Part shown: in pieces, positions 33,801 to 56,053 of the stretch | Position numbering within the stretch: position 1 is the first letter of the stretch | How the letters are laid out: every line of letters starts with the position of its first letter | Assembly: GCA_021162745.1 (NCBI GenBank) | Contig: JAGGYC010000051.1 | Location: forward strand, 1-64,000 | Source of the DNA: Desulfuromonas sp. | GTDB taxonomy: Bacteria > Desulfobacterota > Desulfuromonadia > Desulfuromonadales > Desulfuromonadaceae | Direction: 5' to 3' | Length of the DNA stretch: 64,000 nt | Made by a program: the position numbers and the translations under genes | Notes under the pieces: generated by a model | Databases searched by the model: none | Told to the model about the DNA's origin: nothing | The model's input: the letters and a program-made list of their open reading frames with translations, nothing else

Positions 33801-35729
33801 TTACATTGTCAAGTCGTGCTGCAATGTCTCCCACTGCTGGTACAACTGCTCAAGAATCTCGCTGATCTCGATATGTTGTTTCGACATGGCCGAAAAACGC
33901 TCGCTATCCTGATAAAGCTCCGGATCGGCCATCTCCTGTTCAAAATCGGCCTGTTGCTGCTCTGTTTTCTCAATCTGACCTTCAAGCTGCTGTAGCTGCT
34001 TTTCCAATTTACGCTGAAGCCGCTGCTCCTCTTTGCGTCGTGCATGTTCCTGTTTACGCTGTTCTTTGTCATTACTCCCCGCGCTGACAATCTTGTTTGC
34101 AATATGTTCAACCCGCTGCTCGGCATGATCGCTACAGCCCTCGGCCTGTTTACTGCGCAAGAAATCAGCATAGTTGCCGGGATGGGATTCGATATGCCCC
34201 TTGCCGACATCGATGATCCGGCTGGCCAAAGCATCAACAAAATAACGATCATGAGAAACAAACACCAGGGTTCCCGTGTAGCTTTTCAAGGCTTGCAGCA
34301 ACACGTCCTTGGACTGCAAGTCGAGATGGTTGGTCGGCTCATCCAAAAGCATCAGATTGGCCGGCCGCAACAGCAAGATCGCCAGCGCCAACCGATTGCG
34401 TTCACCACCGGACAAAACCGACACACGCTTGTGAACATCGTCGCCGCTGAACAAAAAGGTGCCGAGCACATCACGCAACTTAGGCACCATCGCCACCGGC
34501 GAGCCTGCCGTAATCTCCTCCAGCACCGTGCGCTTCGGATTGAGAATCTGGGCTTGGTCCTGAGCGAAATAGGCCAGCTCAAGATTATGGCCTTCCTTGC
34601 GCTCACCATCGCTTGGCTGTTCGATCCCCGCCAGCAACCGCATCAAAGTCGATTTACCGGCGCCGTTGGCACCGACCAGGGCAATGCGCTCTTCGCGATT
34701 GACCGTCAGATCCACGCCACTGAGCACCTGATGCTCACCATAACGTTGACCGGCCTGGTTCAATTCCAGCAGTTCCTTGCCGCCGCGCGACGGCTGCGGG
34801 AAGGTGAAGGCAATTTTTTTGCGCTGCGGCGGGATCTGTATCCGCTCAATCTTCTCCAACTGGCGAACTCGACTTTGCACCTGACTGGCTTTATTGGCCT
34901 GATAACGAAAACGGCTGATGAAGGCCTCAATCCGTTCAATCTCTTCATCCTGACGCTGTTTCTCGGCGCGCAACGCCGCCACGCGCCGATCCCGCTCTTT
35001 AAGATACAAGGTGTAGTTGCCGGGATATTCGGTGAGATCACCATTCCAGACCTCGACAATCCGCTGCACGACTTGGTCCATAAAATAGCGATCGTGCGAA
35101 ACCAGCACCACGGAAAACGGATAGTTACTCAGATAGTTTTCCAGCCAGTCGCGAGCAGGCAGGTCGAGGTGGTTGGTCGGCTCATCCAGTAGCAACAGAT
35201 TGGGCCGTTGCAACAGCAAGCGTGCCAGGGCAATCCGCATCTGCCAACCACCGGAGAACTGTTCACAGGGTTTCTGCCAATCCTCCTCGCTGAAACCGAG
35301 GCCATGTAGCACCCGGGCAATATCGGCCTCCAGGGTAAAACCGCCACGCAAACTATAAAGATCCTGTAGATGCGCATAGCGCTCCAGATCCTTTTCATCG
35401 GCACTTGCTGAAATCTTACCTTCCAACTGTTCAATCTCTTCCGCCATGTCCAGCAACTCAGAACAGGCACTACGCACCTCTTCAAACAGACTGCTGCCCT
35501 GATAACTGAGACCATCCTGCGGCAGGTAACCAAAGGTAGTGCCACGGGCGACAATCACATCGCCCTTGTCGCAGGTGTTTAACCCACACAACAGTTTAAG
35601 CAGGGTTGACTTTCCGGCACCGTTTTCACCGCACAAACCGACACGTGCACCGGGACGAATATGCCAATTAACATTGTTGAAAATTTTACGGCCGGAAAAA
35701 TCGACCTCGACATTTTTTAATTGCAACAT
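33801..35729 (-). CDS. ABC-F family ATP-binding cassette protein
   Basis: Two ABC domains (GENGAGKSTLLKLL; GANGAGKSTLMRLL), LSGGERNRLALA, LLDEPTNHLDL x2, no TM segments, C-terminal coiled coil. Confidence 0.94.
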   Translation of the reverse strand: MLQLKNVEVDFSGRKIFNNVNWHIRPGARVGLCGENGAGKSTLLKLLCGLNTCDKGDVIVARGTTFGYLPQDGLSYQGSSLFEEVRSACSELLDMAEEIEQLEGKISASADEKDLERYAHLQDLYSLRGGFTLEADIARVLHGLGFSEEDWQKPCEQFSGGWQMRIALARLLLQRPNLLLLDEPTNHLDLPARDWLENYLSNYPFSVVLVSHDRYFMDQVVQRIVEVWNGDLTEYPGNYTLYLKERDRRVAALRAEKQRQDEEIERIEAFISRFRYQANKASQVQSRVRQLEKIERIQIPPQRKKIAFTFPQPSRGGKELLELNQAGQRYGEHQVLSGVDLTVNREERIALVGANGAGKSTLMRLLAGIEQPSDGERKEGHNLELAYFAQDQAQILNPKRTVLEEITAGSPVAMVPKLRDVLGTFLFSGDDVHKRVSVLSGGERNRLALAILLLRPANLMLLDEPTNHLDLQSKDVLLQALKSYTGTLVFVSHDRYFVDALASRIIDVGKGHIESHPGNYADFLRSKQAEGCSDHAEQRVEHIANKIVSAGSNDKEQRKQEHARRKEEQRLQRKLEKQLQQLEGQIEKTEQQQADFEQEMADPELYQDSERFSAMSKQHIEISEILEQLYQQWETLQHDLTM

Positions 35730-35777: not shown

Positions 35778-35917
35778 TCGTAACTATCAGCATAACGGTA
35801 AATACTCTGGCGACGCCCATGGAAAGGGTATCTACCGCCCGGATGGCGGCAGTTAAGTGCCCATGGATGGGCTTGACGTCCCTTGGAATGGGCGTTGCCA
35901 GAGTATCGGGCTGAATA
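35778..35917. repeat. structured dispersed repeat, copy 1
   Basis: tactctggcgacgcccat...ccgcccggatggcgg...gcccatggatgggc...atgggcgttgccagagta; homologous to 44960-45102. Confidence 0.85.
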
Positions 35918-35928
35918 TTCAGTATGGG

Positions 35929-36339
35929 TCATTCTCGCACCCGGCCCCGCAACTGCTTAGTCTTGCCGCGTTGGGTTTTACGATCCACCCGCTTCTTCCG
36001 CGCATTTTTGGACGGTTTGGTCGCCGTTCGTTTTTTTTCCGTTTTGGTGGCTCGTTGCAACAGCTGTTGCAAACGTTGATAAGCATCGGCTCGATTCAAC
36101 TCCTGGCTGCGATACTGTTGCGCCTTGATGGTCACCACACCATGTTGACTGATACGATGATCCGCAGTTTGCAACAAACGCTGCTTAATCTGTTCAGGCA
36201 ACGAGGAGCGATGAATATCGAATGTTAAAACAACCGCCGTGGACACCTTGTTGACATTCTGCCCACCTGAACCCTGGGCACGAATAGCACGCCACTGCAA
36301 CTGACTGTCATCGATAACAATTTGAGATGTAATACGCAT
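35929..36339 (-). CDS. arfB: alternative ribosome-rescue peptidyl-tRNA hydrolase ArfB
   Basis: RAQGSGGQNVNKVSTAVVLTFDIHRSSLP GGQ domain plus basic C-terminal tail. Confidence 0.92.
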   Translation of the reverse strand: MRITSQIVIDDSQLQWRAIRAQGSGGQNVNKVSTAVVLTFDIHRSSLPEQIKQRLLQTADHRISQHGVVTIKAQQYRSQELNRADAYQRLQQLLQRATKTEKKRTATKPSKNARKKRVDRKTQRGKTKQLRGRVRE

Positions 36340-42629: not shown

Positions 42630-43796
42630 TCAAACATCAGGTATAAACCGGGCGACGGCCCGAGGAATATCATCCAGCCGAACATTGCCGAACGCCAGCC
42701 GCAAATAGCCCTCCAGTCCGGGACCAAACACTTCGCCAGGCAGACAGATCACATTGGCTTCATCAGCCAGTCTGCGCGCCGCCTGACGCCCCATCAACTG
42801 CGGCCAGGGATGGCGCACCCAGGCAAAGAAGGCGCCACTGGCACACAGGGTAAACGGATTGCCCGGTTTACAAAACAGTTGTCGAAACAGATCATGACGC
42901 TGCTGCATCATCTGCGCATTGTCATTCACCCAATCATCGAGGTGGTCACAACCGTAGGCGACGGCATGCTGGGTGATTCGGGGCTGACACACCACCATGC
43001 TATCCTGCACCTTTAACGCCTGTTGAATCAGTTCCTCACCAGCAACCAGCGCCCCGGCACGGTAGCCGGTCAAGGCAAAGGTTTTACCGAAGGAGGCGAT
43101 ATGAATGAAATTTTGCGGCCACTCCGGCTTGGCAAACAAGCCATGAGGCGGTTGATCCGTGGGGAGAAAGGCGTTGTAGGTTTCATCGAGGATCAAAGCG
43201 ATGTTGTGGGCGCTGGCCAACTGATATAACTCGTCGATCAACGCCGGAGGCAAGATCGCCCCGGTCGGATTGCTCGGTGTCACCAGCAGGATCGCCCGGG
43301 TTTTGGCCGTAATCGCTCGCTCAATAGCCTGCGGATCGGGCAAGCCACCATGTTCGTCAAACGCCACATAACGCGGCACAATCCCCAGGGCGTCCATCCC
43401 CATGGGATGATCGAAATAGGCCGGCAGTTGCACCACCACCTCGTCACCGGACTGGCACAGGGTCATCATCGCCAACCAAAATGCCTGACTGGCACCAATG
43501 GTCAGGCAGATCTTCCCGGCGGCGGGTGCCGCACCATAGCGACGTTGATACCAGCGACTGACACTACTGCGCACCTCGGTCAAGCCCTCATCAGGCGAAT
43601 AGATGGCTACGGCGGGATCGACCATCCGTTGTTGCAGATGGCTGATCAACGACGGATGGGGTGGATAATCTGGGATAGCCTGACACAGGTCGACCAGCGG
43701 TTTTCCCGCTGGAAACTGACGCCCGGCAATCCAGCTTTTTACTTCGGTGATCGGCGGATAGGTCACCTCCTGCAATCGTGATGAGAGCTTCATCAC
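42630..43796 (-). CDS. pyridoxal phosphate-dependent aminotransferase, class I/II
   Basis: TIGASQAFWLAMMTLCQSGDEVV; VTPSNPTGAI; SFGKTFALTGYRAGALVA. Confidence 0.93.
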   Translation of the reverse strand: MMKLSSRLQEVTYPPITEVKSWIAGRQFPAGKPLVDLCQAIPDYPPHPSLISHLQQRMVDPAVAIYSPDEGLTEVRSSVSRWYQRRYGAAPAAGKICLTIGASQAFWLAMMTLCQSGDEVVVQLPAYFDHPMGMDALGIVPRYVAFDEHGGLPDPQAIERAITAKTRAILLVTPSNPTGAILPPALIDELYQLASAHNIALILDETYNAFLPTDQPPHGLFAKPEWPQNFIHIASFGKTFALTGYRAGALVAGEELIQQALKVQDSMVVCQPRITQHAVAYGCDHLDDWVNDNAQMMQQRHDLFRQLFCKPGNPFTLCASGAFFAWVRHPWPQLMGRQAARRLADEANVICLPGEVFGPGLEGYLRLAFGNVRLDDIPRAVARFIPDV

Positions 43797-44938
43797 TTCA
43801 CCGCTGACAACTGGATAAACTCGGTCAACAACCGACAGACACTGACCAGATCGTCAACGCGGATAAATTCATCAACGGAATGCACCTGCTGCATGCCGGT
43901 AGCCAGATTGGCGATTTCAATCCCCTGCTGATTAAACACGTTGGCATCGCTGCCGCCACCAGATTTCCCCACCTCCAGGCGCTGATCGAGATCCGCTGCC
44001 GCCTGACGCAGACGCTGCAATACCACCGCTTCAGGAGCGACATTCATCAGCGGGTAATCCGCCATCACCTCCAGCTGTACTTTAGCCCGGATACGTTGAC
44101 CGCGGATCTCCACCTCACTCGCCTCAACCGCATCGTGTAGACACTGTTGCATATGTTCGGTCTGACGCTGTAGGCGCTCGGCATCAAAGCTGCGGGCCTC
44201 CCCCATCATTTGCACCATGCGTGGGATGATATTGGTCGCCTGACCGCCGTTTATCACACCGATGTTGGCGGTGGTCTCACCATCAATGCGACCCAGCTTC
44301 ATCTGCGCAATAGCCTGGGCAGCCACCTGAATAGCAGAGATGCCATGTTCCGGATCCAGCCCGGCATGGGCTTCCAGCCCCTCGACAACAAAACGTAACT
44401 TGTTGGCACAGGGTGCTTTACGGGCCACCATTCCCACTCCCGACGTGTCCAGCACCAAACCACGGCGAGCCTTCAAACTCGTATAATCAAGATGCTTTGC
44501 ACCCAGCAATCCCACCTCTTCACAAACGGTGACCACCACCTCCAGCGGTGGATAAGGGAGATCATTTTCATGCAGAGTCTCAATCGCTTCAATGATCTGG
44601 GCGATACCCGACTTATCGTCGGCACCAAGGATTGTCGCCCCGGCGCTACGGAACACGCCATCGTTGAGAATCGGTTCAACCCCTTGCGCGGGTGAAACCG
44701 TATCCATATGAGCAGACAGCAACAGCACTTCGCTTCCGCCGTCCCGGCTAGGAAAACGAGCTATAATATTCCCCGATTCAGAGCCAATCTTCGCTCCGCA
44801 CGCGTCCACCACAACGTCGGCACCAAGAGCCTTGAAACGTTGCTGTAAATATCGGGAAATTTCCCCTTCATGGAAGGAGGGACTGGCAATCGCTGCCAAT
44901 CGGGAGAATTCGACACACAAACGATCAATATTAATCAT
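43793..44938 (-). CDS. M20-family peptidase (PepT-like)
   Basis: LLLSAHMDTVSP; ILGADDKSGIAQIIEAIE; VVTVCEEVGLLGAKHLD; 4-bp overlap with the downstream aminotransferase. Confidence 0.92.
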   Translation of the reverse strand: MINIDRLCVEFSRLAAIASPSFHEGEISRYLQQRFKALGADVVVDACGAKIGSESGNIIARFPSRDGGSEVLLLSAHMDTVSPAQGVEPILNDGVFRSAGATILGADDKSGIAQIIEAIETLHENDLPYPPLEVVVTVCEEVGLLGAKHLDYTSLKARRGLVLDTSGVGMVARKAPCANKLRFVVEGLEAHAGLDPEHGISAIQVAAQAIAQMKLGRIDGETTANIGVINGGQATNIIPRMVQMMGEARSFDAERLQRQTEHMQQCLHDAVEASEVEIRGQRIRAKVQLEVMADYPLMNVAPEAVVLQRLRQAAADLDQRLEVGKSGGGSDANVFNQQGIEIANLATGMQQVHSVDEFIRVDDLVSVCRLLTEFIQLSAVK

Positions 44939-44959
44939 ACAATTCTTTCCTCAATTTTT

Positions 44960-45102
44960 TCGTAACTATTCAGCATAACCGTAGATGCGCTGGGGACGCC
45001 CATGGAAAGGGTATCTGCCGCCCGAATGGCGGCAGTTAAGTGCCCATGGATGGGCTTGACACGTCCCTTGGAATGGGCGTCGCCAGCGTATCGGGCTGAA
45101 TA
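44960..45102. repeat. structured dispersed repeat, copy 2
   Basis: Homologous to 35778-35917 over the whole length; flanked by tattcagc ... gctgaata inverted ends. Confidence 0.85.
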
Positions 45103-45242
45103 ATTACATTTTTTCATTCATAGTTCCGCCATCGCATAGCAGGCACCGGTCAAGCCCAACAGCCTGCTGGACAATATCGCGAAAAAGCTGATATGATGAG
45201 CGGATTAGCCCAGTTTCGATCGTCGTCAATACACATCAAAAG

Positions 45243-46619
45243 ATGGATGTTCACTCTATGTCTCACCATCGCCACAACCGCTACCGGTCCACAACCACAA
45301 CCCGCCGCCAACGCAAGCAGAATACGATGTTATTCCTGATTCTGGCAAGTGCTGCGCTAGTCATTTTCTTTCTTGTTCGCACCAGCGAGCCCGACCGCAT
45401 CGCTTCACAGCCCGACTCAGCCATTCCTGCCCCAACGGCTTTTCGCGAACCTGCACCGGAACAGGTGATACAGATTCAGCGCGAAACCATCTGTCAGGCC
45501 GTTCAGCCCGGTGACACCATCACCGCCATCCTCGGTCACTATTTTTCCCCTTCCGAGATTCTGGTGATCGCCCGCGAAAGTCAAAACGTATTCCCACTCT
45601 GCAACCTGTGCGCCGGGCACCCGTACCGGATTGAGATTGAAAACGAAAACTTTGTCAGTTTTTATTACGATATCAACCGGGAAGACCAGTTGATCATCCA
45701 CCAGGAGCAGGGGGAATTTTCTATTGAGCGTCAGCCAATCCCCTATACGGTTGAGGTGGAAGCCATTGGCGGCGTTATCAACTCCAGCCTGTTTAGCACC
45801 GTTGCGAGGCTTGGCGAGTCTTCGGAGTTGGCTGCAGAATTGATGAACATTTTTGCTTGGGATATCGACTTTATCCGCGACATTCGCCAAGGCGACTACT
45901 TTACCGCGCTGGTAGAAAAACGCTACCGCGACGGCAATCTAGCCGGGTACGGCAACCTGCTGGCTGCTGAATTCAACAATAACAATCAAAGCTTTTTTGC
46001 TTTCCACTTCGACAATGGCGTCAGCGACAGCGGCTATTTCAATGAGGACGGCAAGAGTCTGCGCAAAGCGTTTTTAAAGGCTCCACTGTCCTACACCCGC
46101 ATCTCATCGGGCTACACCAAGCGCCGCTTTCATCCGGTGCTCAACAGGTGGAAGCCTCACTTGGCCATCGACTACGCCGCACCTACCGGCACCCCGATCA
46201 AGGCCGTAGCCGATGGCACCATCACCCAAAAGAGTTACGACAAAAACAACGGCAACAAGATCCGTCTGCGTCACCCCAACAACTATGAAACCACCTATAT
46301 TCACATGTGCAAATTTGCCCGCGGCATGAAAAAAGGAAAACGGGTACATCAGGGAGATGTTATCGGCTATGTCGGCATGACCGGCCTTGCCACGGGTCCC
46401 CATCTCGACTTCCGCGTATTCCACAACGGCAAAGCGATCAATCCGCTGAAAATCAAGTCGACCCCGTCAAAACCGGTGTCGACAGCCAACAGGGACACTT
46501 TTTTGGCTTTGACCAAACAATTACAACAACAGCTAACTGAAGCCAAGCTGCAACTGGCACGACACCCAGAAAGCGATCAGGAAAACCATGCGGAAAGCAA
46601 TGGCGCCGCCACGCTATGA
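45243..46619 (+). CDS. M23 family peptidoglycan metalloendopeptidase
   Basis: RISSGYTKRRFHPVLNRWKPHLAIDYAAPTGTPIKAVADGTI; GNKIRLRHPNNYETTYIHM; GLATGPHLDFRVF. Confidence 0.94.
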   Translation: MDVHSMSHHRHNRYRSTTTTRRQRKQNTMLFLILASAALVIFFLVRTSEPDRIASQPDSAIPAPTAFREPAPEQVIQIQRETICQAVQPGDTITAILGHYFSPSEILVIARESQNVFPLCNLCAGHPYRIEIENENFVSFYYDINREDQLIIHQEQGEFSIERQPIPYTVEVEAIGGVINSSLFSTVARLGESSELAAELMNIFAWDIDFIRDIRQGDYFTALVEKRYRDGNLAGYGNLLAAEFNNNNQSFFAFHFDNGVSDSGYFNEDGKSLRKAFLKAPLSYTRISSGYTKRRFHPVLNRWKPHLAIDYAAPTGTPIKAVADGTITQKSYDKNNGNKIRLRHPNNYETTYIHMCKFARGMKKGKRVHQGDVIGYVGMTGLATGPHLDFRVFHNGKAINPLKIKSTPSKPVSTANRDTFLALTKQLQQQLTEAKLQLARHPESDQENHAESNGAATL

Positions 46620-55770: not shown

Positions 55771-55912
55771 CAAGAGAGGCTGCGAGCAGATGACAAGAGT
55801 CGTCAACTTTCCCCTTGCGGGGCGCATCGCTGCTTTCGAAACTCGAAAAGCAGCTGGCACCTTGGTTGTCAGGTTGCCGGGCGCTTGATACAAATCCTCA
55901 CGCCTCTCTTAA
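55771..55912 (-). promoter_or_regulatory. putative SAM-responsive riboswitch, S-box superfamily (SAM-I/SAM-IV-like)
   Basis: Minus strand: P1 AAGAGAGGC...GCCTCTCTT enclosing CCCGGCAACCtgacaaccaaGGTGCCA core; located directly upstream of the metY-like gene. Confidence 0.6.
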
Positions 55913-56053
55913 TGCTTGTCGACAAGCATAAACACCTGACCATTATTGTCAAGATTATTTTTTCCGCCACGATCTTTTTTTTGTTGTGCATGCAGCCCGG
56001 CAGAAGATGTTGTTAAAACTCGACAGAATGTGATAAATTAAAACTTTGTTCTA

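Follow-up and report, generated by a model that had tools for sequence, protein, structure and literature searches.

The 143-146 bp repeat that occurs twice in the window, i.e. the whole stretch of 64,000 nucleotides of Desulfuromonas sp. analyzed here, is a MITE with IS66-type ends. Its interior is read as a structured-RNA cassette that putatively binds CsrA, and we give this combined reading a probability of about one half. The features of the two window copies and of related elements are summarized in Table 1.

The repeat is short, non-coding and multicopy. The two copies noted by the initial annotation (35778-35917 and 44960-45102) are indeed near-identical (92%), but both had been delimited too short, and a search of all 163 contigs of the genome (2.9 Mb) raised their number from two to approximately 30, which fall into several subfamilies. 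The terminal inverted repeats (TIRs) are 13 bp long (GTAACTATTCAGC / GCTGAATAGTTAC), and perfect target duplications of 7-8 bp flank most full-length copies in the source genome. The 13-mer end occurs 59 times in this genome at up to one mismatch, versus five times for the reversed control. Loci from many genomes yielded 55 distinct end-paired elements with target duplications (up to one mismatch), mostly 143-147 bp in length. Because of the TIRs and the 8-bp target duplications the repeat is classified as a MITE, and of the options left open earlier the mobile unit is thereby confirmed. The GTAG tag of REP-type DNA hairpins was not evident by eye. Mini-derivatives of 42-69 bp retain both TIRs and the 8-bp target duplications with little else, the form that deletion of the hairpin interior would leave. 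Locus L070 (G000:C43:2971-3135, 165 bp) has the same TIRs around a very different C-rich/G-rich palindromic interior; several cargoes therefore share these ends.

Table 1. Features of the two MITE copies in the window and of related loci.
Feature	Position	Strand	Remarks
MITE copy 1	35780..35922	GGA strand = +	limits approximate; ends decayed; target duplication not recognisable
Copy 1 left TIR	35780..35791	+	GTAACTATCAGC, one T lost vs consensus
Copy 1 right TIR	35910..35922	+	GCTGAATATTCAG, decayed
Copy 1 outer stem, 5' arm	35802..35820	+	pairs with 35888-35906
Copy 1 outer stem, 3' arm	35888..35906	+	
Copy 1 inner stem AAGGG	35824..35828	+	pairs with CCCTT 35880-35884
Copy 1 hairpin 1	35832..35852	+	loop CGGAT, GGA 35841-35843
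Copy 1 hairpin 2	35855..35874	+	loop ATGGAT, GGA 35865-35867
Alternative pairing	about 35829-35833 with 35865-35869 (copy 1)		A1 columns 32-36 with 69-73
Copy 1 neighbours	33801-35729; 35929-36339	-; -	ABC-F gene; RF-1-domain gene
MITE copy 2	44962..45107	GGA strand = +	
Copy 2 target-site duplication, left	44954..44961		ATTTTTTC
Copy 2 target-site duplication, right	45108..45115		ATTTTTTC
Copy 2 left TIR	44962..44974	+	GTAACTATTCAGC, perfect
Copy 2 right TIR	45095..45107	+	GCTGAATAATTAC, one mismatch
Copy 2 RNA core	44999..45077	+	
Copy 2 hairpin 1	45015..45035	+	loop CGAAT not CGGAT; GGA lost
Copy 2 hairpin 2	45038..45057	+	loop ATGGAT, GGA 45048-45050
Copy 2 neighbours	43793-44938; 45243-46619	-; +	M20 peptidase gene; M23 peptidase gene
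IS66 partner L238			relative; 1717 bp; 483-aa transposase
IS66 partner L243			relative; 1723 bp
Mini-derivatives	L121:507-563, L121:915-960, L173:2261-2302, L175:7709-7777, L183:5401-5454, L219:497-550		

Elements of the IS66 family have ends beginning with GTAA and generate 8-bp target duplications (ISfinder). The MITE ends likewise begin with GTAA and are accompanied by 8-bp duplications, in the source genome as well as in relatives, and two elements with an IS66 transposase (PF03050) and perfect duplications, L238 and L243, carry the identical 13-bp end in relatives. Because of these shared ends, IS66-type transposases are the most likely agents of mobilization and would move the MITEs in trans. 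No IS66 transposase gene was found in the 163 contigs of the source assembly, from which multicopy elements may be missing. Unlike the MITE, the 15 IS66 loci examined gave no match to the model of the RNA core (R1), so that the interior is regarded as cargo; for these loci an origin of the RNA as a leftover of the transposase leader is rejected. A known transposon end, named in the initial annotation as an explanation that would refute its reading, accounts for the ends and leaves the interior unexplained. The same RNA core is also found between unrelated ends (about CTGGATATCCACTTCGCTCA) in genome G116 and one other MAG. Loci L245-L248 and L172 represent a second MITE type with ends near this sequence and the same core, with duplications that look 8-9 bp long but are imperfect. 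Some copies of the core have no recognizable ends, and across the order IS66-type ends are found on most vehicles.

Model R1 matched 46 of the 277 genomes of the class, all of them within the Desulfuromonadales, and gave a single weak match beyond the class (395 genomes of the phylum). In a genome of the same genus the RNA core occurs as tandem pairs approximately 125-130 bp apart (G004:C35:8-251, G004:C233:2396-2633). Five loci bearing the element (L159, L163, L164, L187 and L195) lie on contigs labelled Chloroflexi (C2.bin.19); the label is probably wrong, because at least L164 has a typical Desulfuromonadales subfamily and ends.

In the interior, two hairpins are enclosed by an inner stem of five pairs and, beyond an internal loop, by an outer stem of some 20 pairs. 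The outer stem (tactctggcgacgcccat/atgggcgttgccagagta) and both hairpins described at the outset occur in the minimum-energy folds of both window copies; the inner stem aaggg/ccctt had been overlooked. In copy 1 a GGA/GGA internal loop separates outer and inner stem. The folds are unusually stable, with RNA z-scores of -5.0 (copy 1) and -8.1 (copy 2), and none of 200 shuffled sequences was as stable. The hairpin loops read ANGGAY and NGGAY, hairpin 1 usually having a stem of eight pairs capped by a 5-nt loop (NGGAT), and the second GGA follows 21 nt after the first. RNAalifold proposed with weak support an alternative pairing, UAUCU-GGAUG, that would hide the second GGA; by pairing with the GGAUG of hairpin 2, the conserved UAUCU/UGUCU would form a possible switch.

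Both the compensatory T-A to G-C change in the outer stem (A1 columns 9/120) and the 2-nt indel between the copies (TTGACGTCCC / TTGACACGTCCC) proved to be real. Covariation across more copies, named initially as the check on a structural reading, gives overwhelming support. Among 40 copies, two-sided changes affect 20 of 39 pairs (145 cells), a value matched by none of 500 shuffles and far above that of slid controls; among 34 sequences that represent diverged clusters, they affect 25 of 36 pairs (222 cells; 0/500 shuffles), with a score of 0.506 versus approximately 0.1 when slid, and all four helices covary. Stem sequences are swapped wholesale while complementarity persists: L024 and L025 share an identical core of 77 bp and have completely different outer stems. 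Between cluster consensuses the hairpin-loop GGAs show pairwise identities of 0.98 and 0.96, versus 0.43 for the outer stem, while the GGAs of the internal loop are not conserved (0.43-0.54). Selection on structure rather than on coding, as first suggested from two copies, is thereby supported. A coding sequence is rejected, as the 2-nt indel throws the minus-strand frames out of register and variation tracks base pairs.

Compensatory change could also arise in a plain MITE with a functionless interior, in which complementarity of the stems is maintained at the DNA level by palindrome correction, i.e. template switching during replication. Since template switching can yield compensatory changes in palindromes, the G-U excess and the conservation of the loops are the stronger evidence. 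A palindrome kept as DNA should give equal numbers of G-U and A-C states. At the level of cluster consensuses, for which the test rests on sequence clusters and not on formal tree correction, the GGA strand shows G-U:A-C = 56:11 (p = 2e-8), and with broader clusters 29:7 (p = 3e-4), which points to the GGA strand as the strand under RNA selection and disagrees with the equality expected of strand-blind template switching. Nor would template switching hold unpaired GGA loops at 96-98% identity, and the same interior is present within elements with unrelated ends. What speaks for palindrome correction is the certain MITE anatomy, the common deletion derivatives, the frequent complementary double changes within clusters (18 double vs 40 G-U and 28 A-C) and the near-symmetrical decay of single copies, recent within-cluster changes showing little strand preference (40:28, p = 0.18). 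This small excess fits weakly constrained decay of single insertions with constraint on founding copies: the majority of single copies resemble insertions in nearly neutral decay, and selection becomes visible on the copies that founded lineages. On balance a functionless interior is considered unlikely. RNA-level selection very probably acts on the GGA strand, and the interior is likely to act as RNA, its fold coming into effect when the GGA strand is transcribed.

For the partner of this folded RNA, CsrA is proposed from the sequence at about even odds. CsrA/RsmE recognizes ANGGAN loops, and the dimer bridges sites 10-63 nt apart (PMC7652899); the GGA loops of the repeat fit this motif, and their spacing of 21 nt lies within the bridging range. 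One CsrA dimer would bridge both GGA hairpins, as in the hairpins of CsrB/RsmZ. Like CsrB, RsmY and RsmZ the repeat presents GGA-loop hairpins on one RNA at a spacing suited to a CsrA dimer, but it has only two conserved ones, placed inside a long stem, and it is multicopy and mobile. To our knowledge, Gammaproteobacteria are the only group in which RNAs that titrate CsrA are well established. The stem of hairpin 1 counts against CsrA, because with its eight pairs it exceeds the stems of SELEX ligands, which typically have up to four pairs (PMC7652899); the loss of one GGA in copy 2 also counts against it.

The source genome encodes csrA followed by fliW (G000:C62:64619), the same order as in Geobacter. 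There CsrA controls biofilm formation and electron transfer, and CsrB-like RNAs are only computationally predicted (PMC11934962). At L089:2300-2885, downstream of csrA-fliW, two ORFs resemble by eye a nucleotidyltransferase/HEPN-type pair. Across the class csrA was detected in 28 of 46 element carriers versus 55 of 231 non-carriers (p = 2e-6), and within the order in 28 of 46 versus 39 of 90 (p = 0.07); being significant class-wide and not within the order, this co-occurrence is weakly suggestive. csrA is present in all 11 assemblies that have five or more copies and are at least 95% complete. It was not detected in 18 of the 46 element-bearing assemblies, and of the near-complete carriers several that have one or two copies are without it.

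The closest Rfam relative is TwoAYGGAY (RF01731), which shares clan CL00106 with CsrB. A 2010 list included it as a probable RNA of no stated function, from human gut, gammaproteobacteria and Clostridiales (PMC2864571), and it was predicted in 2014 to bind CsrA (PMC4333381). The Rfam search, a check likewise named in the initial annotation, had a divided outcome: the window is without a TwoAYGGAY match at the gathering threshold, and copy 2 (L003) is not among the matches even at E <= 10, while a related copy in the order, L105, scores 50.9 bits against a cut-off of 43. As L105 is the sole match above 43 bits, support above the cut-off comes from one locus, which is situated close to the end of a contig, in a palindrome of unusual length that may be an assembly artefact. 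A further dozen or so copies score 26-37 bits, below the cut-off, exactly over the element and on the same strand. Both RNAs have an outer stem around two hairpins with A-N-GGA-Y loops, on the same strand and in the same order of parts; the two AYGGAY hairpins are present in the repeat as a relaxed match, since the loop of hairpin 1 mostly has 5 nt. Of the Rfam model, the repeat largely lacks both the long stem of hairpin 2 and the single-stranded stretch at the 3' side, and RF01731 is not listed as MITE cargo.

A functional RNA with a partner other than CsrA, such as a processing site for RNase III/RNase E, an mRNA-stabilizing hairpin or an RNA controlling transposition, appears rather improbable. 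Double-strand processing would fit the very long stems, Coxiella offers a precedent for transcribed MITEs (PMC5896051), and RNA-level selection is well supported where csrA co-occurrence within the order is weak; such roles, though, need no pair of conserved GGA loops, and a model of the CsrB clan matches.

Regulation of neighbouring genes by copies acting in cis, within leaders or between the genes of an operon, is very improbable. Many copies do occupy the space directly between a stop codon and the gene that follows, and the Rfam type label of TwoAYGGAY is Cis-reg. In an exploratory survey with a simple ORF finder, which called both neighbours of 94 copies, however, the GGA strand was antisense to co-directional neighbours in 41 cases and sense in 20 (p = 0.01), and each of the two window copies lies antisense to its left-hand gene. 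This excess speaks against copies generally acting in cis within mRNAs; it would fit purging of sense insertions that disturb host mRNAs, or separate transcription of the GGA strand.

Under the CsrA reading, transcribed copies would be CsrA ligands, acting in trans as decoys or, in the rarer mRNAs that carry the GGA strand in sense orientation, as sites; a role as decoys is put forward tentatively. It is also possible, with the odds against it, that IS66-type MITEs together with at least one other MITE type spread a putative CsrA-binding RNA module through the genomes of Desulfuromonadales. If CsrA is bound, mobile cassettes of CsrA-binding RNA are present by the dozen in these bacteria, and a lineage that also has FliW would gain a large reservoir, mobile and dispersed, of decoys or sites for CsrA. 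Dispersal of a regulatory RNA module by transposons would then be a route for rewiring the RNA network of a global regulator. The many copies per genome and the very strong covariation make the CsrA hypothesis easy to test.

Among bacterial MITEs, the transcripts of QMITE form stable stem-loops, and copies of it gave rise to sRNAs (PMC5896051); Chunjie, which has TIRs and direct repeats, likewise comes in different sizes (PMC10969869). Both resemble the present element as bacterial MITEs whose transcripts form stable stem-loops, but their lengths differ and CsrA is unmentioned in both papers. Chunjie was compared by its published description, and R1 had no match outside the Desulfuromonadales in the class search. 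MITEs and CsrA-clan-like RNAs are each known; in the open-access literature no paper was found that links MITEs with CsrA-type hairpins, describes the present element or reports a MITE-dispersed CsrA-clan-like RNA in Desulfuromonadales. In other bacterial MITEs the lineage-level comparison of G-U and A-C states could separate RNA selection from palindrome maintenance. The one Rfam family that matches the window at its gathering cut-off lies away from the repeat: a SAM-I-IV riboswitch at 55795-55920 on the minus strand, with 46.1 bits against a cut-off of 41.1.
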